In this document: one piece after another, positions 2,110-30,482 of the stretch | Layout of the letters: each line of letters begins with the position of its first letter | Numbering within the stretch: the first letter of the stretch is position 1 | Source: Bisporella sp. PMI_857 | Taxonomy: Eukaryota; Ascomycota; Leotiomycetes; Helotiales; Helotiaceae | DNA length: 64,000 bases | Direction of reading: 5' to 3' | Assembly: GCA_021307315.1 (NCBI GenBank) | Contig: JAJSPD010000062.1 | Span: 1-64,000, forward strand | Made by a program: the position numbers and the translations under genes | Notes under the pieces: generated by a model | Database searches by the model: none | Seen by the model: the letters and a program-made list of their open reading frames with translations, nothing else | Told to the model about the DNA's origin: nothing

Positions 2110-3150
2110 CATTAGATGTGAATTGTCGTAGATTCAGAGGCGGGACTTTGCTATTCGGGACTGGGCGGAATCGTACTGCGGTAGATTTGTAGCATCAGAT
2201 TTACACAGGTTCGAACGAGCCAGAATAGTCAAACTTGTCAAAAGTGGATGGCGCAAGGCAGGGAAGCTAAAATCTGTTGCAGCCGAAAAGGTCAGCGAGC
2301 TGTGCGACATGGGTGTAGAATCAAGGCGTAATCGATGTTGGAAGAAGTGCTCGAAAGCGTCGGCGGATATACGAATTGTTTGATGAATGGTTCCAAGAGG
2401 GTCCCGCTGCAACAGGTAAACGACTTTGGAATGGCAAACGAATGCCTTGAGCTTTTAAGAGGCCCTGAAACCTTTTGGCTGTAGTGCATCTCAGACCTGC
2501 ACATGCTTGACTGCCCACTTCACCTTGAGATGAATGCTGAAAATGAGTGGTTAAAACTTCTGTTACACAGCTATCGGGCACCTCGGCAAGGCGTTTTTTA
2601 TATTAGTGCACCATTGCAAGGCCGGTACCTTTGAGGGCTTTGCAGCTGATGCGGTTCGATGTTGTTGTGCAGATCAAGTTTTTAACGGACTCTCAAGCAG
2701 GAGCATATGTGATAAACAAAAGAGAGATAACATTCAGCACACTCTCCCCACAACAGATCCGTTATGAGACCCGACTACATCAAAGTGGGTAGCCCCACAG
2801 CGGCGCAGTTCCGTCAGGCTTGGCCTCGCATCACTGATGACAGTAATCTCCCTCTGTATGGTTTCCGCCGCTGCAAAACCATATATCTCATTAACCTCTG
2901 CTTTCACAAAGATGAAATTGCGAAGCTGGATCATTTTATCTACCAGGTAGGTCTCTGTTTAGAGCACGAATCGTCAGCCCGCGACAGATTGGGATTGAAG
3001 CCGAGCAAAACTGACTCCAACGTCCCATATGTTGAGGAAACCATCACACGAGGGCTGGTCTTGCAGCCCCGCTATTTGATACAGCAGTGTGATATATTGA
3101 ACTTCACCGCCGCACCAATGCCTACAGTATTGGCCATCCAAACTTAAGGA
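2110..3150 (+). other. possible decayed coding region, family unknown
   Basis: Open stretches on + read like protein, for example around 2145-2330 (RDFAIRDWAESYCGRF...) and 2764-3147 (127 codons containing LINLCFHKDEIAKLDHFIYQ). They sit in different frames with stops between them, and I recognise no domain. This may be a fragmented gene or chance reading frames. Overlapping minus-strand frames at 2134-2581 look like shadows. Confidence 0.2.
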
Positions 3151-3705
3151 TGCTTCACTCCAATGGTTGCCTAATCGACATGTCAACCAACCGGAGCGGG
3201 GTTTTATTATTCCGTTATGGCCTCATCACGTGATTATGGCATATGAGACAAAGCAGAAGAACTGCGGGGATAGCCGCTTGGTGAGATTTCCAGATAAGTG
3301 GTACACTAAGATATGATGCTATTGAGAATCTACTATAACAGGTAGTGAGAAGAAATCTTCAAATATTCAAAGACCCTTTTAGTAGCCTTTTGTTTCTCCA
3401 ATTTCTTCAAATCTCTCACTTTTATGACACTTTTTATTCTTTCTCCGCTGTTCCAGGGGTATGCCGGACCCAGTTTTTGCCCTTTATTTAGGGGGGATAT
3501 CAAAAGAATGTGTGACCCACCATTATGTATTGCTGGGAGGAAGGGCAAAGGACACACGCTGGCGTAAACGTGCGTGCCGTTTGTGCCGATGCCGATGCTT
3601 GGCGCTCTTTCTTTTAGCGAAAGTCGAACATGCTGCCATCACAGTGTTTTCTCAGTGGGTTCTTTGGCATTTAAACTCCACTTGCCGACTCAAGCGTGCT
3701 GAGAG

Positions 3706-5241
3706 ATGTCTACCAATACCGATTCCACATCGTTCAGACCTCTCTATGGTTCCGACGCCTCCCTGCAGTCAGCGCAAGGAACGGATGCTGCGTGCGACCT
3801 CATTACCTTCCTCGCGGTCATCCAAAAGCTGAAGATCGACATTCTACCAATCACATGGCAATCAGTGCCGCAGCCAATTGGAGCAGGAGCGACGGGCGTG
3901 GTTAATGAGGCCTTGATCAACCTTGGCACAAGCTTTGCTTTCAAACGCGTTAGGAAGGAAGAGGGAGAAGCTGAGAAAGGAATCATCCAGGCTCTCATTA
4001 GCGAAGTCATCGTTCTTAGTCACCCATCATTACGGAAACACCCCAATATCGTTAAACTACATGGGGTCTGCTGGGATGTTGCATCAGACGGCAGTATCTG
4101 GCCGGTTCTAGTGTTTGAAAAGGCACAATACGGAGATCTTTACAATTTTATAACACTACCAATAGGGAGAGAACTATGCATTACCGAACGATTAAAGCTG
4201 TGTGTGGATGTTGGCACTGCAATCTTGGACATGCATTTCAACAGTAAGTCATTGGTAGGCCAACAAGCACTTTAGCAAAGCGCTGATACTATTTCAGAGA
4301 TCATACATGGGGATGTCAACCCCGAAAATATCCTGGTTTTCAAAGATGGCACCGGCGCGTACACAGCAAAGGTGACGAACTTTGGATATTCAACCAAGTT
4401 TGAGAATGAAGATGAGTTCTTTCACGTACTGAAGTCGTCGCCTTGGAGTGCACCTGAACACGTTCGTGACAAGTTTACGCCGGCTCAGACGCAGAAGATG
4501 GATGTCTTCTCGTTTGCTATGCTCTGTCTCTGGGTAGTGTTTGAACAGTACCTCTCAGGGATTGTGCCATTTCCCCAGGAAGCGCATTGGGCGGAAAAAT
4601 ATTTTCAAGGGAAGGAAGGGAGACATCTGAGCAAGAGAATCCTTGAGGACCTAAAGCAGAGAGACGAGCTAGTGATACTCTCCCGACAGCTCATTATGGC
4701 CGAGAGAGATCTGGACGATGACAGGAAGCAAGCGCTTGAAAGATTCTTCTGTGCATCATTGACCTGCAATCCTAATGAACGAGAGACCAACTTCAGCCAG
4801 TCATTGAGTCGCCTAATATCACATCAGCATGATTACACTTTTCAGCTAATAGGACCGGAAAATTATGGATTCCAGGTGTAAAACTACAGTTTTGAGGTGA
4901 GTACCATAATATCATTCTAGATATTAAATTAACGGATTCAGATTGTACTGTCGATAGATTCTCTATATCAGGCAGACTGTCGAGTACGACGGTATATTAG
5001 ACACCTCCTGGAAAATCGAATACTTGCCGCTGGATCGGATTCCCATCTAGAGTATTTGGATCAAAATCTTGCCTTTCAGCTCGCAGTCTGCTACATGATT
5101 GGGTTTGGCGGGTATAGAGATGAGCCAAAGTCCTTAGAAATGCTACACAAGAGCAGAAAATCTAAGCAGGAACTCAACGAGACTATATATAGGATCAAAT
5201 CGGTACAAGGCGATGGCAAAGTGCTTGCCGGAACGGCTTAA
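3706..5241 (+). CDS. protein kinase-like protein with atypical active site and C-terminal helical tail
   Basis: Three exons, 3706-4243, 4298-4875 and 4942-5241, give 471 aa. Intron 1 (54 bp) has a GTAAGT donor. Intron 2 (66 bp) uses a GTGTAA donor whose retention would create an immediate stop. Kinase landmarks in order: glycine loop IGAGATGVV (about 62-70), lysine in FAFKRV, catalytic-loop HGDVNPEN, VTNFG in place of DFG, SAPEHV as the APE motif, DVFSFAML helix F. The loop keeps the catalytic Asp but lacks the usual Lys, and the Mg-binding Asp of DFG is Asn, so weak or absent phosphotransfer is likely (inference). The third exon (SLYQADCRVRRYI..., AFQLAVCYMIGFG) matches the repeat-like tail usual in fungal kinase proteins of this type. 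A NLR-rich neighbourhood suggests a signalling role. Confidence 0.8.
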
Positions 5242-5315
5242 ACTAGTCTGCTAGCCCTAGGTAATATCTCCTCCATTGCCTCGCTAATTAATACTGTAAG
5301 AGTGGTAAATTAGGA

Positions 5316-5594
5316 GTGGCAGAGGCAGAGATAAGGCGGGAGATTCGAGATATAGAGCATATCTTTAGGAAGGATAGTTATATGTGGATGGTTAATGCTA
5401 ACAAGCTATCAATGATATGTCAGGCCGATAAGCGATGGAAGGAGGTCGAAGAGCTAGAGGTGCAAGTGACGAAGAGAGGAAAGAGGGTACTTGGAGAGGA
5501 GCACAGTGAAGGAAATAGTATCGTGATATTTAGTAATATCGAGTCTCGAGACATACGAGATCGACTTTTTGATACTACGCTAGTATTAGTATGA
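5316..5594 (+). pseudogene. TPR (kinesin-light-chain type) repeat fragment
   Basis: An open stretch contains RWKEVEELEVQVTKRGKRVL followed by GEEHSE, one recognisable 42-aa TPR unit of the kind found in fungal NB-ARC-TPR proteins (compare the gene at 19486). The expected next helix (DTLxSMxNLA) is missing and the frame runs into AT-rich sequence with no further units. It is best read as a relic of a TPR gene. It could have been a distal part of the kinase gene just upstream, but no splice solution joining them is visible. Confidence 0.45.
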
Positions 5595-5639
5595 GATATC
5601 TCGTAGGCACTAGGATTAGTATGAAAATTTGATCTCATT

Positions 5640-6397
5640 CATATTGGCGAGAATACTATGATATCGTGCCAAGGCCGAAATGCGGCTCTGCAGATAAAAC
5701 GTACATAAATTATCGAGGATTTCTGCTCCTTGTCATCACCAACCTCCTTTTTTTGCATCACAACACCATCACCAATATTCCTTTTTGCTCCTTTTATACG
5801 CCACTACAAGGTTCCTGATACAATTAGAAACGAAAACCATGCTATCAAAAAGGTCATACAAAGTAGCCGGCCCGCAGAAAGGCTTCCTAAGCAATAGAGC
5901 TGTTGAACCATAGTTCCTGAACGCGTCAGTGGCCTTACTGAATGAAAGTCGACAATATTACCAGATTCTGAATTTTTCGGTGTTTTAGATATTCGAAAAT
6001 AGGTCGATTTTGAGTGTAAAACACCCCATATTTGGAAATACAATGGCGCGGCGGATCGAGGCGGAAATGAGGCTATTACAGCGCATTTTGCTATAGGCAT
6101 CGCGCTTGTAGCTATTGCTATTTTTGGTACGAATAGATGATTTCAATCAGTCGGAAACCTTGAGGATAATGATGATTCCTTGAAAGGAGGCGCGGCATGA
6201 TTGATTTGAGTTTTGAGAAGTAAGAGATTCTCGTAACCTTGCAAATTGGCCGCAATTGTGTATACAAACCTCGACCCTTCTTTTCTTTCAATTTAGTATC
6301 ACTCCTGACGCTTTCGCGACGTTTTCAACGACCAATAGCAAGCTGGAGGTAGAAGGATCTGCGAGGTCAATAGCAATCCCTTTTCTTATCTTTCATA
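5640..6397. other. intergenic, no gene seen
   Basis: I see no convincing reading frame or repeat. The 98-codon minus ORF at 5804-6100 resembles no known family. Confidence 0.5.
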
Positions 6398-8672: not shown

Positions 8673-11600
8673 ATGACCTCGATACCTGCAAGGCCCCGCA
8701 CGTGAGTATCTTTGACCTTCACTAGGAGACGAGGCTCTGCTGACTTTCGCCCGATGTCAAGTAACGATCTCTGGGCGCGTGCAGCAGCCAAGCTTAGTCA
8801 CGAAGACAGAAAAAATATCAACTTCAGCTGCCCTGACAAGCTTAAAATCCTATCAGACTTACACGAGCTTACTGAAACTTCTAGGCAAGAGTGTATCAAT
8901 AAACGATGGCGTTATAAGAGAAAAAGTGGGGAGACCGTCATTTTCGTCGACTTATTCGGCAAAGTTATCAAGTGGGTTGATCTCTTCAAGCAAGTTGGGG
9001 ACATAGTTGTTCAATATGATCCGGTTCATGCTGCACTTCCCTGGGCTGGTGTGCGATTTCTTTTACAGGTTTGTAGCATTCAATTATTAAAAAAAAAGCT
9101 GCTAAAATGTTCCCAGATCGCGGTCAACGACTTCAATAAATTTTCTTTCGTGATCGAAAGCGCAGAATTGATAGCGGAACTCATTTGTCGTTGTGCTATA
9201 TTCGAAGATGTCTACTTGCAGCCCTCTTCCCCTGTTGGCGATGAGCTTCAGAGAGCTCTGGTCAATTTGTATGTAGCGGTCATGGTTTATCTTTCGAAGG
9301 TAAAAGGCTATTTTGATCAGAATCTCGCAAGTCAGTTAAGTTCTCCAATAGCAGGACGTCAGCTGATAGGTTCAACAGAGCGTGCTTTAAAGAGTGGACT
9401 TCTTGCGATATCAGACCTTGAAACATCCTTTAGCGCAATTGCTCCTGCACAAGAGATTGTTGACCGTTGCTCAAATATAGTCGGAATGCGAGGTCTGATG
9501 TAAAAGAGTATCAAAAGGCTAAGTTGCTGACCAAAGTCAGATCATATTGAAAAGCACAAAGAGCTTAAAGAACTTCTCGGCTGTATTAATAGTCCACTTA
9601 AACGATTGACTGAGGATTTTAAAAGATTTAAAGATGGATTTGAGAGCAAGTTTTTACTTTAGTACCCAGAAAAGTGGCTTACAATCTCTAGCATCAAAGC
9701 GAGCGGAGATTCTTTTGTGGGTATCGCCAGAACCGTATTTGCAACATCACGAGCAGTCAAAAAAAGAAGCCCTGTCCGGGACTGGGCAATGGCTACTTGA
9801 GGATCCAATTTTCGACAGGTGGAAAAAAGAAAGCGTGCCTTCTATCCTCTGGCTCCATGGGATCCCGGGTTCCGGTAAAAGCAAGTTGGTGTAAGTGCAA
9901 GTTACATACCTGAGTTTTGAGATTGCTGACTGCAATAGATCTATTGTTATTGAAGATGCTGATAAAGCTTTTAATGCCGGTCAAAGCCCCCCTCCAGTAT
10001 TTTTCTACTGCTCACGAAACAGCGCTGAGCCTGCACGTTCAAACCCAGATGCAATTGTCGCCAGTATCGCCCGACAGTTATCTAGCCTTCAACCCGGGCT
10101 TCCTTTACTACCGCCAATGGTTGCAATCTATCGGAAACGAGAAGCCGAAGGGTATGCTTCGGGTTCATTGCGTATTGACGAGAGTCGTGCACTTATTATC
10201 CAGCTTGTTGAGCATTACCCAATGACAACTATTGTGATTGATGCGCTCGATGAATGCGATCCAGAAAATCGTGCGGACCTATTAGAAACTTTGGAAGCCG
10301 TCCTTCGAGAGTCATCAAACTTAGTGAAGATTTTTGTGTCAAGCCGCAATGATCAAGACATTGTTTTGCACCTACAAAACTACCCGAACCTTGAGCTTTC
10401 ATCTGACAGAAATAACAACGACATCGCTTTATTTGTTCGGGCTGAAACCAAAGACCTTATTCGGAAACGAAAGTTGCTGCATCTAAGTATAAACAAAAGT
10501 GAATTGCAGGAGGCTATTGTTGAACAGGTCACAAAAGGTGCTAATGGCATGTGAGCTTCGCTTAAGTTCCGTGAGCTTTTATTTGCCGCTGACATGATTA
10601 TACCAGGTTTCGCTGGGCTAGCATGCAACTGCTAAGTCTTTGCGCCGTGAAAACCGATAAAGCCGTTCGAGAGAGGCTTGGACAACTGCCACCAAAACTA
10701 GAAGACTTCTATCTCGAACTGTATAAAAGATTGACTAGTAGCGCTGCGGATGCCGATCGCGAAGTCACTATCAATGCATTTAGTTGGCTACTCTGTGCGC
10801 AAAGAACATTGGCTTTTTCGGAATTCCTTGCTGCACTATTAATAACACTACGCCGACCTGTCAATCGATTAACTAAAGAGCACATTTTAGAGATATGCTT
10901 TAATATAGTAGTTTTTGATTCAACGTTAAATATATTTCGATTTGCACATTTATCAGTACGAGAATTTTTGGAGAAGCGACCAGAATACAGCAGCAAAGTA
11001 ACAAGCACTTTAGCTGCAGAAAAATGTCTTTTAAAGATCAAACGTTTTACTTCCAACAGTGGGCAAGCTTCGTTCGGCTCAGCTCTTTTATACGATTTCA
11101 GCAAATATTCGAATTTTTACTGGGCTATGCATTGCCAATTAGCAGCTGATGAAAGGACTTGTGGAATATTAAAGGACTTTTTCGTTTCTTTCCTTTCTAA
11201 AGAATCAAATCCAAGATCAGCTGTTTCTATATAGACCAGTTACATCCAAAAGCTGCTATACAACGCAGTTGATTGGACGGTATACATAAGATTACAAGAC
11301 ACTCAGGCTACACAAGGAATTACTCTTTTCATCGCATGTTGTTTCGATTTCCCCGAAATCGTAAAATGCCACGAGATGGTCCAAATCGATATTCTAAACG
11401 ATAATGGTTTTACGGCATTAGAAGTTGCTGTGAAGTATGGTAGCTGTGGAGTTATTTCCGTCCTAATAGATAATAAGCTTATGCCGATAAAAGAGAAGGT
11501 GATACAAGCAGCGGCGAGGAACGAGGAGAGCGGGAAGGAGGTGATGACGCTGCTATTTGAGCAACGCGGAGCAGATGTAATCGTAACAGAGGCAGTGGTG

Positions 11601-13898
11601 AAAGCAGCGGCCGGGAATAGTAGGAATGGGAAAGAAGTAATGACGTTGCTGCTTGAGCAACGCAGAGCGGATGTAGTTGTGACAGAAGCGGTAGTGAAAG
11701 CAGCGGCCAGGAATAGCGGGAACGGGAAAGAAGTAATGACGTTGTTGTTTAAGCATCGCGAAGCAAATGTAGTTGTGACAGAAGCGGTAATGAAAGCAGC
11801 GGCCGGGAATCGGGGAAACGGGAAAGAAGTAATGACGTTGCTGTTTAAGCATCGCGAAGCAGATGTAGTTGTGACAGAAGCGGTAGTGGAAGCAGCAGCC
11901 AAGAATTGGGGGAACGAGAAAAAAGTAATGACGTTGCTGTTTGAGCATTGCGGAGCAAATGTAGTTGTAACAGAAGCGGTAATAAAAGCAGCGGCCGGGA
12001 ATTGGGGAAACGGGAAAGAAGTAATGACGTTGCTGCTTGAGCAACGCAGAGCGGATGTAGTTGTGACAGAAGCGGTACTGGAAGCAGCGGCCAGAAATTG
12101 GGGGAACGGGAAAAAAGTAATGACGCTACTGCTTGAGCAACGCGGAGCAGATGTAGTTGTAACAGAAGCGGTAGTGGAAGCAGCGGCCGGGAATAGTGGG
12201 AACGGGAAAGAAGTAATGACGTTGCTGCTTGAACAACGCGGAGCAGATGTAGTTGTAACAGAAGCGGTAATGAAAGCAGCGGCCGGGAATCGGGGAAACG
12301 GGAAAGAAGTAATGACGTTGCTGTTTGAGCATTGCGGAGCAGATGTAGTTGTGACAAAAGCGGTGGTAAAAACTGCGGCCGGGAATCAGGGAAACGGGAA
12401 CGAAGTAATGACGTTGCTGCTTGAGCATCGCGGAGCAGATGTAGTTGTGACAGAAGCGGTAATGAAAGCAGCGGCCGGGAATTGGGGAAACGGGAAAGAA
12501 GTAATGACGTTGCTGTTTGAGCAACGCAGAGCGGATGTAGTTGTGACAGAAGCGGTAGTGGAAACAGCGGCCAGAAATTGGGGGAACGGGAAAGAAGTAA
12601 TGACGCTACTGCTTGAGCAACGCGGAGCAGATGTAGTTGTAACAGAAGTGGTAATGAAAGCAGCGGCCAGAAATAGTGGGAACGGGAAAGAAGTAATGAC
12701 GTTGCTGCTTGAACAACGCGGAGCAGATGTAGTTGTAACAGAAGCGGTAGTGGAAGCAGCGGCTAGGAATGGCGGGAACGGGAAAGAAATAATAACGCTA
12801 CTGTTTGAGCATTGCGGAACGGATGTAGTTGTGACAGAAGCGGTAATGAAAGCAGCGGCCGGGAATCGGGGAAACGGGAAAGAAGTAATGACGTTGCTGC
12901 TTGAACAACGCAAAACGGATGTAGTTGTGACAAAAGCGGTAATGGAAGCAGCGGCCGGGAATAGTGGGAACGGGAAAAAAGTAATGACACTTTTATTTGA
13001 GCATTGTGGAGCAGATGTAGTTGTAACAGAAGCGGTGGTAAAAGCTGCAGCCGGGAATTGGGGGAACGGGAAAGAAATAATGACGCTACTGCTTAAGCAA
13101 CGCGGAGCAGATGTAGCTGTGACAGAAGCGGTAATGAAAGCAGCGGCCGGGAATCGGGGAAACGGGAAAGAAGTAGTAACGTTGCTGCTTGAGCATTGCG
13201 GAGCAGATGTAGTTGTGACAGAAGCGGTAATGAAAGCAGCGGCTGGGAATAGTGGGAACGGGAAAAAAGTAATGACGCTACTGCTTAAGCATCGCGGAGC
13301 AGATGTAGTTGTAACAGAAGCGGTGGTGGAGGCAGCGGCGAGTAATGAAGAAAGCGGGAAAAAAGTGATGACGTTATTGCTTCAAAATAGAGGGGACGAG
13401 GTCCAGATTACTGAAAAGGTGATCAAGGGCGCCGCAACAAGTGGGCAAGAAGCAGTTTTGAGAATTATCGAGGAATACTTTAAGGTCTTGCCTGGTAAAG
13501 AGAACTGGTTATTACTTGCTCAGTTATACAACGCAGCGAAAAATGGAGACGAAAAAGTAACCCGAAACTTGTTAGTACAAGGAGTTGAACCCGACTTTAA
13601 AAACCCAAGAAATATTTCTCCTTTTTAGATAGCATCAACAAACGGGCATTCTGCAATAGTTCAGTTACTTCTCAATACCAAAGCAGTAGATGTCAACGTA
13701 AGAAGCACGGCTGGGCGGTCTCCTCTTTTTTGGTCTGCGGCGTGTGGCTATGAAGACATTGTACGGCTGTTGTTAGAAGCCAATGCAGATTCCGCCTTCG
13801 TAGATGAGGATGGACAAACTCCGCTTTCAATGGCTAAGCAGAATGGGCACGGCAAAATTGTCGAGATGTTGGCGGGTAGATTAGAAAGTTCTAAATAG
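8673..13898 (+). pseudogene. NACHT_N-NACHT NLR with about 20 near-identical 32-aa repeats and C-terminal ankyrin repeats, interrupted by stop codons
   Basis: The proposed start at 8673 is followed by a 60-bp intron (8702-8761), then the NACHT_N-type domain (NDLWARAAAKLSHEDRK..., QYDPVHAALPWAGVRFLLQ). Further introns: 9069-9116, probably 9480-9536, 9891-9938 and 10551-10606. NACHT landmarks: Walker A LHGIPGSGKSKLV, Walker B TIVIDALDECD, sensor region VKIFVSSRND, and a winged-helix-like part with RFAHLSVREFLEKRP. A tandem array of 32-aa units follows (about 11490-13400), then ankyrin repeats (SAIVQLLLNT, GYEDIVRLLLEA). Three defects: a TAG at 11232-11234 and another at 13626-13628, both in an otherwise continuous frame and both where Trp is expected (SI-W-TSYIQKLL, SPF-W-IASTNGH), and a frame break near 9640-9680 that no normal intron repairs. 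Family role: nucleotide-driven sensor of non-self controlling cell death. This copy is probably inactive unless the stops are bypassed. Confidence 0.85.
11488..13400 (+). repeat. tandem array of about 20 x 96-bp coding repeats
   Basis: The period is exactly 96 bp: the block CAGAAGCGGTxxTGxAAGCAG recurs from 11588 to 13316, a distance of 18 x 96 bp. The unit encodes VVTEAVVKAAAGN-x-GNGKEVMTLLLEQRGAD (32 aa). Units are nearly identical at the DNA level and differ at a few positions (AAAGN/AAARN, LLLEQRG/LLFKHRE/LLFEHCG). Because the period is a multiple of three and few stops occur, several antisense frames also stay open for more than 100 codons. In fungal NLRs such high-identity repeats are the ligand-binding, fast-evolving part. 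Confidence 0.9.
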
Positions 13899-16099: not shown

Positions 16100-17012
16100 A
16101 GTGATCACAAATTCGGAAGAAATTCTTACAGGGCTGATGCGCACAGTGACTGCTAAAGCACAGAAGTCTGGTTAGTTCGGTATAAGAGACATAGAGAATA
16201 ACTGCGAAACCAATCCGGCTACACAGGCGAAAGAATAATAATGCGGCTGATAGACTGTGTTGAACATGCGATGGTGTGGAGGCAGGAAATGAGAAGGACA
16301 GTGAGGTGAGAGAATCTGAGGAAGTTCAAGTAAGATTGGGTTGTGGGGGCACATGCATAATCACCAAAGCCTTAAAGAGTCGAGCTGCAATCTAGCCGCT
16401 GGCCATCTGTGTGGATGAATACTGGCATAAAGAGTTGGTGCTGCTGAGCCTAAAGAGGGGAAGATCCAAGTCAGGAGCAGCAGAAGGCCGACCATTCTTT
16501 GACGAGTGCTGGGGCTCGATCTGCAAGGTACTTAGCAAGTTACGCACCTTCTGTCGCAATAGCACCATATTTTCTTCAACCATTGCTGCTTGGGCCGTGG
16601 ATGATGGAGACCCCGATACAAACGCTGGGTACTAACGTGTGGCAGCCCACAGCGCTGTGTTCCATGGTGGGGCAAGCATACTTCTGGTGGATAGTCTGGA
16701 GTAACGATTCAGCCACAGCCCCTGCTGGAGGCCCTGGTCTTCCGCCCCCACCCTCATTAATCAGTGGGAGTCGGCCTTGTCCCCTTCCACCTCCCTGTGG
16801 CCTCAGCCAAACCACTCATGAAGCTTTCGGCTTCTGAACAACAAACTTTCGTGCTTTCATCTACAACTACACAACAAATTTTATTGCCAGAAAGGTTTAT
16901 GATGGTGTTAACTACGCTTGATCCCGTAGGCGGTGAGCCGGGTAGAGTATTAGCACACACTTTGGAGTATGTAGGACCTAGTTCATATCGACGGCGCTAA
17001 TTATGTTTTGGC
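16100..17012. other. intergenic with weak frames
   Basis: Several overlapping frames of 60-110 codons occur (16392-16960) but none has a recognisable domain. 16764-17000 (+) may hold the poorly conserved N terminus of the SesB-like remnant that follows. Confidence 0.35.
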
Positions 17013-17312
17013 AGTATCGTTGTTTTACACGGGCTTAACGGTGATCCGCTTTCTTCGTGGACTCATCCAGTGACAAAAGCATTCTGGCCGCAAGATTTCC
17101 TGCCTTTGGATATCCCCGAGGCACGTGTGATGACTTTCGGGTATAATCGCATTTAGCAATACGACGGCAGATATTGTGGATCACGCCCGGGATCTTTTAG
17201 GGAGTCTTCTTGACAAACGAGAAATAGATGAAGAGCAGCGGAGACCGATTATATTTATCGGACACTCTCTTAGGGGCATTGTTGCGAAATATCTTGCCTG
17301 TCTTCTTGGTGT
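17013..17312 (+). pseudogene. SesB-like alpha/beta-hydrolase remnant
   Basis: The translation shows IVVLHGLNGDPLSSWTHPVT, FWPQDFLPLDIPEARVMTF, GYN, a stop and frame change, then ADIVDHARDLLGSLLDKRE and RRPIIFIGHSLRGIVAKY. This is the lipase-like SesB family that serves as an NLR N-terminal domain or as a separate effector. GHSLRG contains the expected nucleophile Ser (GHSLGG in relatives). The gene ends after this motif, and the His/Asp parts of the triad are absent. It sits next to a sigma-motif gene pair, where SesB-type effectors are typically found. Confidence 0.75.
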
Positions 17313-17319
17313 AATCTGG

Positions 17320-17850
17320 CAGCTCTGCCAATTGCAAAAAGCCTGAACTTTTTCCTTATTGTTCAAATGTCTTCGTCCCATTTAATCAAATCAACGATAT
17401 TGGCATGTGTCCTTCGAACAGTCCATGATCCGCATCCGCATGACTCTACCAAATTTAGTTGCACGATCTCTTACCTCCTCGTATTGCTCATACGTTTTCG
17501 GAAGGACAATTAGCATGTCCCTGAAGCCAGCGCGCGTTACGAGTCCAAACGACAGAAAGGGATCTCTCAATGATGGGATCGTTAATATAATTCAGAGTGT
17601 AGTAGCAAATCCTACCACAGGGGCTACAGCACAGGTCCAGCCACATCTCCACAGTGGGGTACTTTAGGGGAGTAGGCTCTCTCAATGCGTGAACGACCAG
17701 CAAGGGAATTTATAAGCATTCATGACAGGATGAGACTGTGGCTACTGGTAGTATAGTCTTATCAACCTAGGCCAGGGTCAGTAAACACATTATTGATCGG
17801 CCGCCAAGATGCAGATTTCACATATTTGATTTCTGCCAAAAGTGATTCCA
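17320..17850. other. no gene seen
   Basis: Short opposing frames at 17407-17667 (+) and 17488-17703 (-) show no known domain. If the minus-strand sigma gene continued through its GTAAGT site at 17855, its next exon would lie here, but I find no conserved continuation. Confidence 0.35.
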
Positions 17851-18260
17851 CTTACTCCCCACTGATATTCACAGCTTGAAAGCCCGAGTTCTGAGCACCG
17901 AACGTCACCGTGGTTGAACCGCTCTGGTTCGCGGCTTTCGCAACAGCGTCTTCCTGTGCTATAAACAGCAACTCATCCAGTAGTTTCTGCGACGCTTACG
18001 CTCTTTTGAATTGTTCTTCAAGTTGTCTCAATGCCTCAGTTTTGCATTCCTTGGATCCAGCATCTTCGTCATCATCGCTGCTGAGGTTCAGCGCTTCCAG
18101 CTTGTTCTCTAACACTACCAGCTGTCGATCCGGCTGTAGTAATAGCACCCTTAACCTCAATTTGTTTTGTAGATATCGTCTTCTTGATCTATTCCGTGAT
18201 GTGGCTATGGCGAACGGAGCTGTGTCTGTGAAGGCAAGGTTAGCTCATGTTCCGCACGGG

Positions 18261-18485
18261 TGTAACAACTCAAGGCGAACAGGGATCTTGATCCGTGGAT
18301 CTCAGGTGGAGGGACTCAAAGGTATGAACGACTGTCAATTGCTATAACTAAGAGAACAAGCTACAGACGGAAGAAGGGAAGGAACGCAGTGCCTTATATA
18401 CAGGAGGCTGGCCGGGGCCAGCGTAAGCGAGCCCTGTGGTGTCAAGGTGCCAAGCTCTAAGCGAGACAGGGCCAGGGCCGTGACA
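18261..18485 (-). repeat. solo LTR, family A, inserted in the HeLo-like/sigma gene
   Basis: A 225-bp segment from TGTAACAACTC to GGGCCGTGACA with a perfect 5-bp duplication ACGGG (18256-18260 and 18486-18490). The host sequence on either side is the same HeLo-like coding region, so the insertion postdates the gene. Confidence 0.92.
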
Positions 18486-18662
18486 ACGGGAACGAGAGTT
18501 CCTTACAAGGTCGCTACATGACAACGGAATTAATAGTGAGCTCGCAGTTTGAAAGCTGCTCTGACATAGCCTTGATTTGCCCTTGGTTGAAGAATTCTAC
18601 ATTTGCTCGATCTTGCAACGCTAGTTTTCCATTTTCTGAGGGTCTAGTCCGTCGCTGGAGGT

Positions 18663-19005
18663 TGTAACTACTCAAGGCGAACAGGGACCTCGATCCGTAG
18701 ATCAGGGAGAAGAACTCAAAGGTATGAAGGCTATCAATTGTTATACCGAAGAGAAGAAGCTACAGATAGAAGAAGGGAAGGAAGGCAGCGTATATATACA
18801 GGAGACTGGCCAAGGGCCAGCGTAAGCGAAGCCTTGTACAGTAGGGTGCAAAAAGTGTCGACCCCCCCTGCTAGCGTGACTGCATATACGCAGTTTCAGG
18901 GCTGCAGTTTTAAATGTACGCATTTTACTCCCCTGAAGCAACCGCGCTAGCAAAGGGGGGGTTCGACACTTTTTGCACCCTACTGTAGTGTCGGGGGCCG
19001 TGACA
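18663..19005 (-). repeat. solo LTR, family A, carrying a nested MITE
   Basis: Begins TGTAACTACTCAAGGCG and ends GGGGGCCGTGACA. Removing the nested 147-bp MITE and its extra TA leaves about 194 bp, similar to the other family A copies. Flanks GAGGT / CTAAA do not match, so the original duplication has decayed or one edge was rearranged. Confidence 0.85.
18839..18985. mobile_element. 147-bp MITE with about 30-bp terminal inverted repeats, TA target duplication
   Basis: Ends are CAGTAGGGTGCAAAAAGTGT and its reverse complement. The inverted repeats are near-perfect over about 30 bp (CGACCCCCC against GGGGGGTTCG at the inner edge). TA occurs on both sides (18837-18838 and 18986-18987), and the LTR reads through as in other copies once the element is removed. 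TA plus CAGT-type ends points to a Tc1/mariner/pogo-superfamily non-autonomous element. It is too short to code for a transposase. Confidence 0.9.
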
Positions 19006-19313
19006 CTAAAAGGTTCTTTCGAGCCTGCGAGAAAGCAGAACCTCGTAGTATAGTATGATATAATACAAGATTGCGAATTTTGCCGTGATACGTATGGCTA
19101 TTTGAAATCTCATATTACGTGGGGTATAGCATTCGATTTTAGGAGTCAATATATCGTGATAATACTAGTTCCTTCATTGTCTTCCACCAGGCACTTGGCG
19201 GTTTTAGGCGCAGCCTTAGGCTGCTACAAATCTTCTAGGGGTAATCGTGTGCCGTGCAAGGCTGGCACAATAATGCCCACGGCACTAGCGGTAATACTAA
19301 GCGGATCAGCCAT

Positions 19314-19485
19314 TTATGTGTGTTGATGACAGAAGCAGGCGTAAAACGAAGACCTAAACCTGGAGCCAGGGCTTTAGAGCCGCCGTTCAATTTGATTGGA
19401 GGGTAACCTCGGGCCATGGCGGCTGGGGGATCGTGGGACACACTCAGCTGCTGTAAACATCTCATCGCAAAACTACTCTGCTGCG
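19314..19485. promoter_or_regulatory. 172-bp shared upstream region of a divergent effector/receptor pair
   Basis: This is the only DNA between the start codon of the HeLo-like/sigma gene (19313, -) and that of the sigma/NB-ARC/TPR gene (19486, +). It must hold both core promoters and 5' leaders, so co-regulation is likely. I see no clear TATA box. Confidence 0.45.
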
Positions 19486-22400
19486 ATGGCATCCACGATA
19501 TCTTTTGGCGCCAACTCTGGGTTCCAAGCCGGGACAATCAACGGTCCGGTTAATACTGAGTTTCATAACCATGCCCCTCCTGGTGAGTTGCAAAGGGTTC
19601 AAGCTGGCGGACGCTAACGACGGCCCCACCCCAGAGCGATTAGAGACCCCACCGAACCCGTCAGTCGTCATACCATTCAGTCGCGACGCAGACTTTGTCG
19701 AGCGAGGGATAATACTTGATCAAATCTACCAGAAATGCGCTGTCTCAGGGTCTCGAACTGCGCTCGTTGGCCTAGGCGGCGTCGGGTGAGCCTAAACCTT
19801 TCTGCCATGCACATGGCTAACGGCTGCTAAGCAAGTCACAACTCGCCATCGAATATGCGTACCGAACTAGAGACCTGTCGTCAGAAACGTGGGTATTCTG
19901 GGTCCACGCAAGCAATGCCGCACGGTTTGAGCAGGGCTTTCGAGATATTGCAAACTATATCAAGATTACCGGGCGGCGGAATCCACAGGCCAACATATTC
20001 CAGCTTGTGCACGACTGGCTGCGCAATCATAGGAAGGGAAAGTGGGTTTTTATACTTGACAATGTAGACGATGCTAACTTCCTCGTCAAACCTCAAAGCA
20101 CCGGTCAGGATGGGCAAACGAATGGCGTAAGCAATAGGGACTTACGACCGCTCGTGTCATACCTTCCACAATGCCCGAATGGATCGATTCTCATAACAAC
20201 ACGGAGCAAAGATGTGGCTCTCAAGCTAGTTGAACAGCGCGACATTATCGCAATCGAACCAATGAGTAAGCCAGATGCGCTAACGCTCTTGGAGAAGAAG
20301 CTAGAATGGCACGACGACGGAGATAACGCTATTAAGCTCGCTGCGGCACTCGAGTTCATGCCGCTTGCCATTGTTCAGGCTGCTGCATACATCTCCCAAA
20401 GGGCACCGCGCTATTCCGTGCGAAAGTACCTCCAGGACTTTCGGAAGAGCGATCGGAAGAGAACTAGTCTCCTTAACTATGAGGGTGAACAGCTCCATCG
20501 AGATTGGGATGCGAAGAACTCTATCCTCATTACATGGCAAATATCATTTGATCATATCCGTGAGATAAGACCATCAGCCGCGGACTTGTTGTCGCTTATG
20601 AGCTTTTTTTGACCGGCAAGGAATTCCCGAGGTTCTGCTAAGTCGAGACGAGCAGAAAAACTCGTGGCAAAAGCAGAAAGAGAGCAACGAGAATAACTAT
20701 GCTAATATCAGTGCTGGCTATAGTGATGAAGAAGAAGACAGTGCATCACAGTCTAGCGTGAGTAATAGATTTGAAGATGATGTCTTGGTCCTACGAAATT
20801 ACTCGTTCATCTCTGTTAATACAGACCACACAACCTTTGAAATGCACGGACTGGTGCAGTTGGCAATGCGAGAATGGCTTAAAGCTCATGAGCAGCAAGA
20901 GAGGTGGAAACAGCAATTTATTAAGAATCTTGATGTAGAGCTCCCAACAGGAGAATACGAGAATTGGGTAAAGTGCCAGACGCTTTTCCCGCACGCACAA
21001 TCGGCAGTAGCACAGCAGCCGGAAGACCAAGAATCATTAAGAGACTGGACTTCGATATTATGTAAGGCAGCATGGTACGCATGGAGAATGGGAAAAGGGG
21101 TAGAGGCGGAGAAAATGTCGGTTCTGGCAATGAAAGTTCGAAAGAGGATCCTCGGTCGGGAGCATAATGATACGCTAAATAGTGTGGGAATGGTAGGCTT
21201 GGCGTACCAGCTTAGGGGTCGGTGGGACGCTGCCGAAGAGCTATTTGTGCAAGTGATGGAGACTCGCAAGAAAAGGCTCGGCAAGGACCATCCACACACG
21301 CTGACCAGCATGACCAACCTGGCGTCAACGTACAGAAATCAAGGTCGGTGGGATGCTGCTGAAAAGCTAGAGGTTCAAGTAATGGAGACGAGCAAGAAGA
21401 AGCTTGGCGAAGACCATCCAAACACCCTGACCAGCATGGCTAACCTAGCGTCGACGAACAGAAATCAAGGCCGGTGGGATGCTGCCGAAAGGCTAGAAGT
21501 GCAAGTAATGGAGGTGAGCAAGAAGAAGCTCGGCGAAGACCATCCTTCCACGCTGACCAGCATGGCCAACCTGGCGTCAACGTACAGGAATCATGGCCGG
21601 TGGAGCGCTGCCGAAAAGCTAAACGTGCACGTAATGGAGACTCGTAAAAAGAAACTCGGCGAGGACCATCCTTCCACGTTAAATAGCATGAGCAATCTGG
21701 CGTCGACGTACAGGGATCAAGGCCGGTGGGATGCTGCCGAAAAGCTAGAGGTGCAAGTAATGGAGACTCGCAAGAAAAAGCTCGGCGAGAATCATCCACA
21801 CACGCTGACCAGCATGGCCAACCTGGCATCGACGTACAGAAATCAAGGCCGGTGGGACGCTGCCGAAAAGCTAGAGGTGCAAGTAATGGAGACTCGCAAG
21901 AAAATGCTCGGCGAGGACCATCCTTCCACGCTGACCAGCATAGCCAACCTAGCGTCGACGTACGGGAATCAAGGCCGGTGGAACGCTGCCGAAAAGCTAA
22001 ACGTGCACGTAATGGAGACTCGTAAAAAGAAACTTGGCGAGGACCATCCTTCCACGTTAAATAGCATGAGCAATCTGGCGTCAACGTACAGGAATCAAGG
22101 TCGGTGGGATGCTGCCGAAAAGCTAGAGGCGCAAGTAATGGAGACTCGCAAGAAAAAGCTCGGCGAGAACCATCCACGCACCCTGACTAGCATGGCCAAC
22201 CTGGCATCGACGTACAGAAATCAAGGCCGGTGGGACGCTGCCGAAAAGCTAGAGGTGCAAGTAATGGAGATTCGCAAGGAAAAACTCGGCGCGGACCATC
22301 CAGACACGCTAACCAGCATGAGCAATCTGGCGTTTACGTGGAAAGGGACTGGCAAAGAAACCGAAGCTGTAAAACTTATGGTGGAATGTATACAATCCCG

Positions 22401-22533
22401 AAAATGTGTTTTAGGAATTGGTCATCCAGACACCCTATTATCTTGCACAGCTTTGGCTGCATGGGAGGCCGAGCAAGATATTGTTGTATTTCGAGTTCAA
22501 AGGACTGTGGCCAAGATCGATGGATTGGATTGA
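19486..22533 (+). CDS. NLR: sigma motif - NB-ARC - TPR repeats, with a one-base frameshift in a T run
   Basis: Exons 19486-19582, 19635-19785 and 19832-22533; the introns are 52 and 46 bp with CTAACG branch sites. Residues 1-25 carry the sigma motif ISFGANSGFQAGTINGPV, matching the end of the divergent gene. NB-ARC: P-loop VGLGGVGKSQLA (about 77-88), Walker B WVFILDNVDD (about 153-163), SILITTRSKDVA, and the GLPL-like motif FMPLAIVQAA. After LLSLMSFF the frame breaks in a run of seven T at 20604-20610; with six T it continues DRQGIPEVLLSRDEQ and on to the end, giving about 982 aa. Residues about 505-965 are 11 units of 42 aa (RWDAAEKLEVQVMETRKKKL, then GEDHPxTLTSMANLASTYRN), the superstructure-forming sensor. 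Family role: ligand binding to the TPR drives oligomerisation, and the N-terminal motif templates amyloid folding of the partner effector. The extra T may be a real lesion or a sequencing error. Confidence 0.88.
21098..22480 (+). repeat. tandem 126-bp TPR-coding repeats (about 11 units)
   Basis: The 42-aa unit is repeated without spacing, with very high DNA identity. Units carrying EKLNVHVMETRKKK occur three repeats apart (about 21604 and 21982), each followed by a unit with KLGENHP, which shows a block duplication of three units (378 bp). Long antisense frames (for example 245 codons at 21440-22177) are a by-product of the periodicity. Confidence 0.88.
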
Positions 22534-26997: not shown

Positions 26998-27467
26998 CGC
27001 ACAAGAAACTTTGGTGGGGCGGCCTTTCACATCACAATAGCTATTAACCGCTGCGATCGCGCACTTGTTATGCTGGCTTTCTTTGGTAAAATAGGCAAAG
27101 ACTGAAGTTTGCAAAGATGCCGCGTCGGTGCACCCATCAGAAACGTCGTCATTTTATTACGGCGGTAGCAGAGCCAACCAGCTCGAAGGCTGCACGGCAA
27201 CCGTGCCACCGCCATCTCAGCCTTGTGCGAAAGGAACGTTCGCGGGCACCTACTGGCGGAAGCCCAGTCTTCCACCATCAGAAGATTGCTTCAATGCTCA
27301 GTGAATGCGGATGGATTATTCCTCCTTACACAGATATTAAATCTAGCGAGCTGAGACTACAAGCCTTTATATATCCCCGTTGATACCGCCATCCCTATCC
27401 AAGCCGCAATCGCCTCTATCCTCCAAGCTATCCAACGAAAGCGTGCATTAGCATCTGCTGGGTACGA
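26998..27467. promoter_or_regulatory. shared upstream region between HeLo-pseudokinase and TPR-kinase genes
   Basis: The two start codons face away from each other across 470 bp. The right part (27365-27467) contains coding-like sequence in the direction of the TPR-kinase (DTAIPIQAAIASILQAIQRK, RALASAGYE) in another frame that ends at a TGA overlapping the start region. This may be an upstream exon or a former N terminus. Confidence 0.35.
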
Positions 27468-30400
27468 ATGATGTTCCAGAACAGTAAAAGGAAAGCAGGA
27501 GAGAAAGAATACAGTCTGGCAGTCACGCTCGACAATCAGCAGAAGTACTCCGAGTCAGAGCAGCTGTTTCGACAGTCGGTTCAGCAACGGGAGAAAGTGC
27601 TAGGTGCCGAACATAAAGACACGCTTTGGAGCAAATACAGGCTGGCATTTACGCTTCACGAGCAGCAGAAGTACCCCGAAGCAGAGCAGTTGTTGCGACA
27701 GTCGGTTCAGCAACGAGAAAAGGTGCTGGGTGCCGAACATGAAAACACGCTTGAAAGCAAATACAGGCTGGCATTTACGCTTCACGAGCAGCAGAAATAC
27801 CCCGAAGCAGAGCAGCTGTTACGAGAATTGGTTCAGCAACAAGAAAAAGTGTTAGGTGCCGAATATAAAAACACTCTCTGGAGCAAATACAGGCTGGCAC
27901 TTACGCTACACAAGCAACAAAAGTACCCCGAAGCAGAGCAGCTGTTCCGAGAATTGGTTCGGCAACAGGAAAAAGTACTAGGTGCTAAACATGAAGACAC
28001 GCTTTGGAGCAAATACAGGCTGGCATTTACGCTTCACAAGCAGCAGAAGCACCTCGAAGCAGAACAGTTGTTGCGGCAGTCGGTTCAGCAACGGGAGAAA
28101 GTGCTAGGTGCCGAACATGATAACACGCTTGAAAGCAAATACTTGTTAGGGTTTACGCTTCATGAGCAGCAGAAGTACCCCGAAGCAGAGCAGTTGTTAC
28201 GAGAAGTGGTTCAGCAACAAGAAAAAGTGTTAGGTGCCGAATATAAAAATACGCTTTGGAGCAAATATACGCTGGCACTTACGCTTCACAAGCAACAGAT
28301 GTACCCTGAAGCAGAACAGCTGTTGCAGGAATTGGTTCAGCAACAGGAAAAAGTGCTTGGTGCCGAACATGAAAACACACTCTGGAGCAAATACAGGCTG
28401 GCAGTCACGCTTCACGAGCAGCAAAAGTACCCCGAAGCAGAGCAGCTGTTGCGAGAATTGGCTCAGCAACAAGAAAAAGTGCTAGGTGCCGAACATGAAG
28501 ACACGCTTTGGAGCAAATACAGGCTGGCATTTACGCTTCACAAGCAGCAGAAGCACCTCGAAGCAGAACAGTTGTTGCGGCAGTCGGTTCAGCAACGGGA
28601 GAAAGTGCTTGGTGCCGAACATAAGAACACGCTTGAAAGCAAATACGCGTTAGCATTTACGCTTCACGAGCAGCAGAAGTACCCCGAAGCAGAGCAGCTG
28701 TTGCGGGAGTCGGTTCAGCAATGGGAGAAAGTGCTAGGTGCCGAACATGAGAACACGCTTAAAAGCAAACACACGCTGGCATTTACGCTTCACGAGCAGC
28801 AGAAATACCCCGAAGCAGAACAGATGTTGCAAAAGTTAGCTCAGCAACAAGAAAAAGTGCTAGGTGCCGAACATGAAGACACGCTTTGGAGCAAATACAG
28901 GCTGGCAGTCACGCTTCACAAGCAACAGAAGTACCCCGAAGCAGAACAGTTGTTGCGACAGTCGGTTCAGCAACGAGAAAAAGTGCTAAGTGCCGAGCAT
29001 AAAGACACACTTTGGAGCAAATACAGGCTGGCAGTCACGCTTCACGAGCAGCAGAAGTACCCCGAAGCAGAGCAGTTGTTGCGGGAGTCGGTTCGGCAAC
29101 GGGAGAAAGTGCTAGGCGCCGAGCAGGAAGACACACTCGCAAGTGAAGAACTTTTACAGAAAGTGATTCTCGCCCGAGCATCGTCAGCCACGTCCAGTCC
29201 ACGCGCGGAAGCCATTCTAAGCCGCCTGGGCGACTTTTTTGTTGAAGGCACCGAAAGGCAAATAGTGTACAGCGACTCGGAGATTAAACAAGTGTCTCTT
29301 CTATTGAGCCAAGTCAACGCCCGATGGAGCAAGGTTCCGCGAACGTACATTACTCTTCGGACTATCAACTGCCTGGACCTTCTTGACGCCTTTATCGACC
29401 TAGGCTTCTCCGACCACTGGTTTCCCGTTACTGAGAGGAGCCTTCCATACTGTCTACATCCCAGTCGGTGTGCACAGTTTGTGGCAGCTCAAAGCCTGGT
29501 AACGACCAAATCTCTAGACCTTGAGAAAGGCGATAAAGGACAACATCGCAACTTCCGTCACGACGAGTCTCTTCCATTCGAGGAAAAAGGTATTCTTGGC
29601 ACTGGCGGGTTTGGGCAAGTTGACCGGATCCTTAGCTTAATCAGTTTCCGAGAGTACGCACGAAAGCGGGTGCCTCGGAGCATGATATTTGGCGGACGCA
29701 GAACGGAAGACGTTAAACGATTCATTAATGAGATTGAGGTCTTGAAGCACTTGAAGCACCGCCACGTAGCGGAGTTTGTTGGTAGTTATACCGATCCAAA
29801 GTACATGGGCCTGATCATGTCTCCTGTTGCCGAGATGGACCTGTCCACCTACCTTGCGTGCGCCAATTCAGCCAGACACAAAGAGCTACGCACTTTCTTT
29901 GGCTGCCTGGCAAGAGCGCTCGAGTTTTTGCATGGGAAAGGCATTCGACACAAGGACATCAAACCTAGCAACATCTTGGTGCATGGCGGGAATGTCCTGT
30001 TTACGGATTTTGGACTGGCATTTGACTTCATGGATGCAGAAGGCAGCACTACGGTTAGTATAGTAAACGGGATGACGCCGAAGTATTGCGCGCCTGAAGT
30101 GGCTAACCATGAACCTCGGAACACGTCGTCGGATATCTGGAGTTTAGGCGTCGTCTTTCTCGAGATGGCTGCGGTGCTCAAGGGCAGAGCGGTTGAGTTC
30201 ATTTACGAGTTTCTTTCAGAGCATGGGTCGCGGCAGGCTTACGTGCGCACGAACCCCGACGGCTTGCGTGAATTACTTGCAAATCTCAAGGAAACAAACT
30301 ACCCGACGGACAACGTTGTGTTGGTATGGATTCAGGGCATGTTAATAATACAGCAAACCCTGCGTCCAACAGCAGCCGCACTAATGGCATCTATCACTGC

Positions 30401-30482
30401 GGCAGGGGAGAGCGGCAATAGAGGCCTCTGCGGAATATGTTGCATGTTGCTAGATGACCTTTTAGACGACTTTGATAGTTAG
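27468..30482 (+). CDS. TPR-repeat Ser/Thr protein kinase fusion
   Basis: One uninterrupted frame of 1004 aa. Residues about 24-570 hold 13 consecutive 42-aa TPR units of the kinesin-light-chain type (QQKYPEAEQLLRQSVQQREK, VLGAEHKDTLWSKYRLAFTL). After a 130-aa linker the kinase domain begins at about 700: glycine loop LGTGGFGQV, lysine in YARKRV, NEIEVLKHLKHRHV as helix C, catalytic loop IRHKDIKPSNILV, FTDFGLAF, CAPEV, SDIWSLGVVFLEM. All key residues are present (HKD rather than HRD, Asp retained), so it should be an active kinase. The layout, a fast-evolving superstructure repeat attached to a signalling module, parallels NLRs but with a kinase output. The partner could be the divergent HeLo-pseudokinase next door (inference). 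The true N terminus may lie in upstream exons. Confidence 0.88.
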   Translation: MMFQNSKRKAGEKEYSLAVTLDNQQKYSESEQLFRQSVQQREKVLGAEHKDTLWSKYRLAFTLHEQQKYPEAEQLLRQSVQQREKVLGAEHENTLESKYRLAFTLHEQQKYPEAEQLLRELVQQQEKVLGAEYKNTLWSKYRLALTLHKQQKYPEAEQLFRELVRQQEKVLGAKHEDTLWSKYRLAFTLHKQQKHLEAEQLLRQSVQQREKVLGAEHDNTLESKYLLGFTLHEQQKYPEAEQLLREVVQQQEKVLGAEYKNTLWSKYTLALTLHKQQMYPEAEQLLQELVQQQEKVLGAEHENTLWSKYRLAVTLHEQQKYPEAEQLLRELAQQQEKVLGAEHEDTLWSKYRLAFTLHKQQKHLEAEQLLRQSVQQREKVLGAEHKNTLESKYALAFTLHEQQKYPEAEQLLRESVQQWEKVLGAEHENTLKSKHTLAFTLHEQQKYPEAEQMLQKLAQQQEKVLGAEHEDTLWSKYRLAVTLHKQQKYPEAEQLLRQSVQQREKVLSAEHKDTLWSKYRLAVTLHEQQKYPEAEQLLRESVRQREKVLGAEQEDTLASEELLQKVILARASSATSSPRAEAILSRLGDFFVEGTERQIVYSDSEIKQVSLLLSQVNARWSKVPRTYITLRTINCLDLLDAFIDLGFSDHWFPVTERSLPYCLHPSRCAQFVAAQSLVTTKSLDLEKGDKGQHRNFRHDESLPFEEKGILGTGGFGQVDRILSLISFREYARKRVPRSMIFGGRRTEDVKRFINEIEVLKHLKHRHVAEFVGSYTDPKYMGLIMSPVAEMDLSTYLACANSARHKELRTFFGCLARALEFLHGKGIRHKDIKPSNILVHGGNVLFTDFGLAFDFMDAEGSTTVSIVNGMTPKYCAPEVANHEPRNTSSDIWSLGVVFLEMAAVLKGRAVEFIYEFLSEHGSRQAYVRTNPDGLRELLANLKETNYPTDNVVLVWIQGMLIIQQTLRPTAAALMASITAAGESGNRGLCGICCMLLDDLLDDFDS
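27540..29160 (+). repeat. 13 tandem 126-bp TPR-coding repeats
   Basis: Units recur every 126 bp. A variant carrying QQKHLEAEQLLRQSVQQREK appears in units 5 and 9, both followed by similar neighbours, which indicates a block duplication of four units (504 bp). The last unit (EDTLASEELLQK) diverges into the linker. Confidence 0.85.

Follow-up and report, generated by a model that had tools for sequence, protein, structure and literature searches.

What kind of system is formed by two divergent fungal genes, one ending and the other beginning with the same short motif, and is it still alive? The question is raised by a 64,000-nucleotide stretch of the genome of Bisporella sp. PMI_857, a member of a genus of Helotiales (Leotiomycetes). 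In this stretch (contig JAJSPD010000062.1, positions 1 to 64,000 of the forward strand; hereafter the window), a gene for a HeLo-like effector lies head to head with a gene for an NB-ARC/TPR receptor. Our analysis indicates that the window very probably holds a decayed copy of an amyloid-signalling unit of the HELLP/PNT1 type.

The effector gene runs on the minus strand from 19313 to 17855 and the receptor gene on the plus strand from 19486, leaving an intergenic region of 172 bp (19314-19485) between the start codons at 19313 (-) and 19486 (+). Translation of the minus strand over 17855-17995 gives ...SGSTTVTFGAQNSGFQAVNISGE, followed by a stop, so that the effector tail ends at 17855 with ...STTVTFGAQNSGFQAVNISGE, and translation of the plus strand over 19486-19583 gives the receptor N-terminus MASTISFGANSGFQAGTINGPVNTEFHNHAPP. 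The same short motif is found at the effector C-terminus and at the receptor N-terminus. A preliminary description of this DNA had proposed exactly this sharing of a motif between the end of the minus-strand gene and the start of the plus-strand gene, together with a spacing of 172 bp, and both statements are confirmed by the translations and the sequence positions.

The divergent arrangement occurs three times in the genome, on contigs C227, C244 and C135 (366523, 266180 and 714464 bases, respectively, C244 being the contig of the window), and only the C227 pair is intact on both sides. Public data include a protein named for Bisporella sp. PMI_857 from a contig of each of these lengths: P0125 (C227), P0128 (C244) and P0148 (C135). 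The sister pairs have intergenic spacings of 180 bp on C227 and 190 bp on C135. With the window's effector tail as query, a single paralogue was found in the genome, that on C227 (67% identity, E 3.1e-10). There, an effector on the minus strand and a receptor on the plus strand both have open frames; the effector exon matches PF17111 (E 7.4e-19), and a scan of the receptor lists DUF7779 and TPR, with NB-ARC itself not listed. In the third pair, on C135, the receptor frame is open and has about three near-identical TPR units by eye, and stops together with shifts of frame disrupt the effector; this dead HeLo-like effector and the open PP-type receptor beside it occupy 5121-6040 (+) and 2653-4930 (-) of locus L013 (C135:236000-245900). 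A recent duplication of the three loci was considered and found no support, as the NB-ARC region of the window receptor is only 76% identical to that of C227 and 71% identical to that of C135, with a dS of 0.74-0.94 among the three. Because this dS is accompanied by NB-ARC dN/dS values of 0.17-0.22, which as pairwise figures are long-term averages and say nothing of constraint after effector loss, the three receptors are best described as old copies under long-term purifying selection. In a quick tree, the nearest rows to the window and C227 receptors come from other species, C135 lying outside the displayed rows.

Comparison with public relatives extends this picture beyond a single genome. 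The C227 effector retrieved 222 public homologues, of which 120 were listed, and for the receptors the best 120 of 1663 were listed. PF17111 is annotated (precomputed) in all 120 listed effector homologues, which are mostly 265-300 residues long, and was found in 55 of the 55 effectors scanned by us (54 of the listed 120 and the C227 exon, together forming alignment A1); the HeLo-like assignment made in the preliminary description is thus upheld. Among the 58 listed receptors that were scanned and aligned (alignment A2), picked mainly for a motif-bearing N-terminus, DUF7779 was present in 58, NB-ARC in 57 and TPR_10 in 56, and in their motif core an N and a G are invariant, with F, Q and two further G nearly so. 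By a loose pattern, the motif lies near the C-terminus in 97 of the 103 listed effectors of at least 240 residues and near the N-terminus in 88 of the 120 listed receptors; the 32 receptor misses comprise some shortened or shifted motifs, including that of the window, and otherwise truncated models or receptors of HET or SesA type. The two ends also find one another when no motif is imposed: an unselected profile-to-profile comparison of 92 effector C-termini with 120 receptor N-termini gave a probability of 96.6% (E 6.6e-10), and none of the four controls, made with the wrong ends or the middle, exceeded 0.2%. A motif-selected version gave 99.0%, against 0.2-15.4% for ten column shuffles.

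Adjacency recurs as well. Twenty-six of the 120 listed effectors co-occur with a listed receptor, on 24 contigs in all, where equal reported contig size served as a proxy for identity and organism names agree where given; if only contigs of 10 kb or longer are counted, the proportion is 25 of 80 effectors. Two of the 24 shared contigs are small (3,872 and 11,468 bases), and consecutive locus tags were found for five pairs (Coleophoma, Trapelia, Leptodophora, Cadophora M221 and Arachnomyces). The remaining 94 listed effectors have no listed receptor on the same contig, and many of them lie on short metagenome contigs. The preliminary description had reasoned that its proposal would fall if the motif were not conserved at these termini in orthologues or if the two genes were never neighbours elsewhere; in the relatives listed here the motif is conserved at both termini, and the genes are neighbours on C227, on C135 and in the relatives just described. 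From these sequence comparisons we conclude that pairs closely resembling this HeLo-like/NB-ARC-TPR one are widespread among Pezizomycotina. The species named among the homologues span Leotiomycetes, Dothideomycetes and lichen-forming fungi. Among the titles listed by literature searches on systems of this kind in Helotiales and on orphaned receptors or pseudogenes, none concerned this locus.

The window copy itself has fared less well than its C227 sister. Its receptor begins with an exon of 97 nt carrying the N-terminal PP-like motif (19486-19582, +; phase 1, GTGAGT donor), continues with an exon placed by eye that encodes a linker and the start of the P-loop (19635-19785, +; the public model P0128 matches 19631-19786), and ends with a main exon for NB-ARC and then TPRs (19832-22533, +); the introns, at 19583-19634 and 19786-19831 (+), were likewise placed by eye. 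Within the main exon the TPR array (21220-22333, +) comprises 8.8 copies of a 126-bp unit (42 residues). Profile matches to NB-ARC (E 2.7e-5) and TPR_10 (E 5.4e-148) bear out the receptor class originally proposed. The main exon has a frame break in a run of T near 20610, and P0128 (962 residues) skips the segment from about 20561 to about 20608, whose encoded residues relatives conserve. The break may be real or an assembly error.

Damage to the effector is more extensive. From its start at 19313 (-), where the N-terminus reads MADPLSITASAVGIIVPALHG, the first part of exon 1 with the start of the HeLo-like domain (19167-19313, -) is 69% identical to the C227 effector and carries one in-frame TAG. 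The last part of exon 1, with the intron edge (18491-18662, -), has 85.5% DNA identity to C227, with a protein match of 72% over 18517-18675, and the exon 2 remnant (17836-18257, -) has 76% DNA identity, with the motif and terminal stop at 17852-17902 and an internal stop at 17996-17998. Two insertions resembling long terminal repeats (LTRs), both of one repeat family, lie within the gene. The first (TG...CA, 18261-18485), which has similar copies at other loci examined, is flanked by a 5-bp target repeat, ACGGG (18256-18260 and 18486-18490), and alignment places it at the position of the C227 intron; alone, therefore, it would not necessarily disrupt the protein. The second (18663-19005) lies inside exon 1, with no clear target repeat seen at its edges, and is itself split by an element resembling a miniature inverted-repeat transposable element (MITE). 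This nested MITE-like element (18839-18985) carries inverted repeats some 30 bp long and is flanked by TA at either end; its arms (18837-18868 and 18956-18987) are 97% complementary. The earlier proposal that LTR insertions had broken the effector is supported, with the correction that the first falls at the intron position and the second in exon 1, and that the gene also has in-frame stops and the MITE-like element. Judged by these disruptions, the window effector is no longer makeable as a full protein. With a broken effector and an interrupted receptor frame, the unit in the window is probably no longer functional; at most it persists as an orphan receptor.

What would the intact form have done? 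The motif provides the first indication. Its core here, NxGFQAGxxN, fits the published description of the PP motif, NxGxQxGxN (PMC9815663), save for one extra residue before the last N, and the pattern G-phi-Q-phi-G is reported as common to PP and the mammalian RHIM (PMC7885112). Ses_B (PF17046), given as the profile of the PP motif where NACHT_sigma is that of the sigma motif (PMC8086366), is the only motif family matched by the motif pieces of the window and C227, with best E-values among the relatives of 3.4e-5 (effectors) and 7.1e-5 (receptors); the window effector tail alone has no Ses_B match. We therefore regard the motif as PP-like (RHIM-like) and not sigma. The DNA and its translations show directly how the genes are ordered, which domains they encode, that they share a conserved motif, where their introns lie, that the arrangement recurs and where the copies are disrupted, whereas ligand binding, oligomerisation, amyloid templating, membrane attack and cell death are carried over by analogy from HELLP/PNT1. 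By that analogy, the NB-ARC-TPR receptor of an intact pair such as C227 would bind a ligand through its TPR array and oligomerise through NB-ARC. Oligomerisation would gather the N-terminal PP-like motifs and so nucleate an amyloid, which would template the effector tail, and the helical domain of the effector would then attack the membrane to cause cell death. A structural model of P0005, a homologue 78% identical to the C227 effector, has helices and then a tail of low confidence (residues 241-276, block means 41-52), within which the motif lies.

Several results weigh against this interpretation and have to be set beside it. The receptor motif of the window (FGANSGFQ) is one residue short relative to most listed relatives. 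The Ses_B matches fall below the curated cut-off of 23.2 bits (window receptor exon 14.8, C227 effector 14.9, C227 receptor 17.7). When the whole genome was searched with Ses_B at E up to 10, C14 ranked best, followed by both C227 genes and the C135 receptor, all below cut-off; the window was not listed, and one of 14 control genomes also gave a match. Ses_B reaches E 0.1 or better in no more than 20 of the 55 scanned effectors and 17 of the 58 scanned receptors. Fold comparison of the effector model, which speaks little either way, returned no MLKL or HET-s/HeLo row among the matches listed, whose top rows are unrelated helical proteins, and a sequence profile run against PDB gave nothing below E 0.14. 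Finally, across 19 pairs, cognate motifs resemble each other only slightly more than non-cognate ones (BLOSUM p 0.029, identity p 0.079), and without Arachnomyces, the pair with the clearest change on both sides by eye (Q to E, with IG..N.PI), p rises to 0.17. For this set a single pair was taken from each of 18 of the 24 shared contigs and the C227 pair was added; it left out the multi-gene contigs 1366103, 2773041 and 3946001 as well as P0063/P0239 (receptor model without motif), P0088/P0205 (shortened motif) and P0109/P0199 (truncated effector). Pair-specific co-evolution of the motifs was accordingly set aside as a weak signal driven by one pair.

These reservations invite other explanations. 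One is that short Gly/Asn/Gln-rich ends of unrelated neighbours resemble one another by chance; the motif is indeed short, and a loose motif-like pattern turns up at three further places in the window's six frames, but neither conservation among 120 plus 120 listed proteins, nor the unselected profile match with its controls, nor repeated adjacency would be expected of such a coincidence, which we consider extremely improbable. Because of that profile match and the divergent layout recurring twice more in the genome, we hold that the terminal match is not due to chance. A more substantial proposal, and that of the preliminary description as regards the motif, is that the ends carry genuine sigma motifs at a locus of the SesA/SesB/Het-eN type, as in the Nectria s-locus, with a SesB-like relic as third member. 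A SesB-like alpha/beta-hydrolase relic does lie upstream, at 16642-17288, and published sesA/sesB/STAND clusters include TPR and NB-ARC members (PMC3321046). The profiles point elsewhere: in a genome search at E up to 0.001, NACHT_sigma (PF17106) matched C59, C279 (twice) and C225 and had no match at C244, C227 or C135, it is absent from scans of the motif pieces of the window and C227, and it falls outside the 25 families listed for the homologues, which leaves room for a match in no more than 1 of the 55 effectors and 7 of the 58 receptors. Moreover, the effector belongs to PF17111, SesA reaching E 0.1 or better in just 11 of the 55 homologues scanned, and the weak matches of the motif pieces go to Ses_B. 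The relic has about 80% DNA identity to a locus on C264, where a SesB-like part is followed by what appears by eye to be a nucleotide-binding-like stretch, with no motif-like tail seen in the 1.5 kb examined; a place for it as third member of the unit is not supported. A sigma locus is, in our estimation, very unlikely, and the sigma reading of the motif was abandoned. True sigma motifs (PF17106) are found at L015 (C279:17000-26900), where two convergent open frames, 3955-4596 (+) and 5103-5822 (-), end in them, tail to tail and about 500 bp apart.

The last alternative accepts the HELLP/PNT1 affinity and questions the death of the copy: the window receptor may still work alone, or its break may be a sequencing error, and it may signal in trans to the intact C227 effector, the broken neighbour then being of no consequence. 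The near equality of cognate and non-cognate motif similarity across species would suit such an arrangement, as would the open C135 receptor beside a dead effector and the low NB-ARC dN/dS among the three receptors, and signalling between non-adjacent partners has been suspected in print (PMC9815663). Against this, the window receptor as assembled has a broken frame and its motif is shortened, and the dN/dS values average a long history rather than reporting on constraint after effector loss. We think this improbable, though deserving of more weight than a sigma locus. It is tempting to speculate, more broadly, that a single executioner serves several receptors that differ in their TPR sensors, all linked to it by a common amyloid motif instead of forming private pairs, an idea prompted by the three diverged PP-type receptors (that of the window perhaps among them) of which only one retains a neighbouring effector; we put it forward as a doubtful proposition. 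The three Bisporella loci, two of which have lost their effector and one of these with an open receptor, allow the question of effector sharing versus own neighbour to be asked. A decayed HELLP/PNT1-type unit remains our preferred account of the window itself.

Similar NB-ARC domains also occur with other N-termini. Receptors elsewhere in the genome have NB-ARC identities to the window of 75% (C25, L031), 64% (C240, L033), 53% (C62, L034) and 52% (C14, L035). Judged by eye, their N-termini look HET-like (C25 and C240), SesA-like (C62) and SesB-like (C14). Public relatives of the receptor are likewise annotated with HET (PF06985) and SesA (PF17107) forms. A quick receptor tree of 118 rows omits 7 of the 120 listed receptors and has 14 rows without an N-terminal label; support is weak for 44 of its 114 inner branches, and two of its long branches join. 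On this tree the PP label, given by pattern, must change 10 times, and well-supported branches compel at least 8 of these changes; after shuffling of the labels the mean is 12.5. N-terminal effector modules thus seem to be swapped often on one receptor chassis. Two further genes of the window may be mentioned. At 9895-13625 lies a STAND-type gene with NPHP3_N, a winged-helix and an ankyrin region with 21 matched DUF7104 stretches, and at 27384-30479 a single open frame of 1032 residues encodes many TPRs with a protein kinase domain after them, an arrangement that strikes us as uncommon.

With the motif class corrected from sigma to PP/RHIM-like, the locus can be placed with the experimentally studied HELLP/PNT1 systems and compared with other known ones. 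The sigma locus sesA/sesB/het-eN of Nectria haematococca has in common with it the clustering of effector and STAND genes and a shared terminal motif, and differs, as described, in the sigma motif and in its other effector domains (PMC3321046). In HET-S/NWD2 and HELLF/FNT1 (HRAM motifs) the receptor N-terminus similarly templates the effector C-terminus, and FNT1 is also an NB-ARC-TPR protein; their effectors, however, carry a doubled HET-s-type motif, and NWD2 is a NACHT-WD protein (PMC7885112). No HET-s motif family appeared in the effector-piece scans or among the 25 families listed for 55 effectors, a scan set outside which the HRAM profiles lie. The hellp-sbp-pnt1 cluster of Chaetomium globosum likewise has a PP motif on the receptor and on a HeLo-like effector (PMC5485727, PMC7885112), whereas no PP-bearing lipase was found here, the nearby SesB-like relic resembling part of another receptor gene.

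The closest counterpart is known from Podospora anserina, where the PP-NB-ARC-TPR receptor PNT1 is encoded next to HELLP, a HeLo-like effector of 271 residues (Bardin et al. 2021, PMC7885112). Both pairs set a HeLo-like effector with a C-terminal motif, PP there and PP-like here, beside an NB-ARC-TPR receptor whose N-terminus bears the same motif, and both have variable TPR numbers, reported as 4-10 in the P. anserina system and counted as 8.8 unit copies in the window. The likeness extends to gene structure: the P. anserina introns are published as nt 429-475 (hellp frame) and nt 95-148 (pnt1 frame; PMC7885112), and exon 1 measures 431 nt (phase 2) in the C227 effector and 97 nt (phase 1) in the C227 and window receptors, so that intron phases are the same and positions agree within one codon; in the C135 receptor the exon 1 donor lies further on because its motif exon is slightly longer. 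The differences are that P. anserina belongs to another class of fungi, that the core here is NxGFQAGxxN rather than the published NxGxQxGxN, and that the Bisporella genome has three such loci, in two of which the effector is dead. The preliminary description, sound in its logic of a receptor-effector pair, had pointed to a TPR receptor in place of a WD40 or NACHT one. This is not unusual, for PNT1 itself is described as PP-NB-ARC-TPR (PMC7885112, PMC12881547), and NB-ARC/TPR partners of HeLo proteins were already reported in 2012 (PMC3321046). As domains and intron phases match HELLP/PNT1 and TPR partners had been published before, the system is one already known, and the pair in the window is, by its sequence, a further and decaying member of the HELLP/PNT1 kind.

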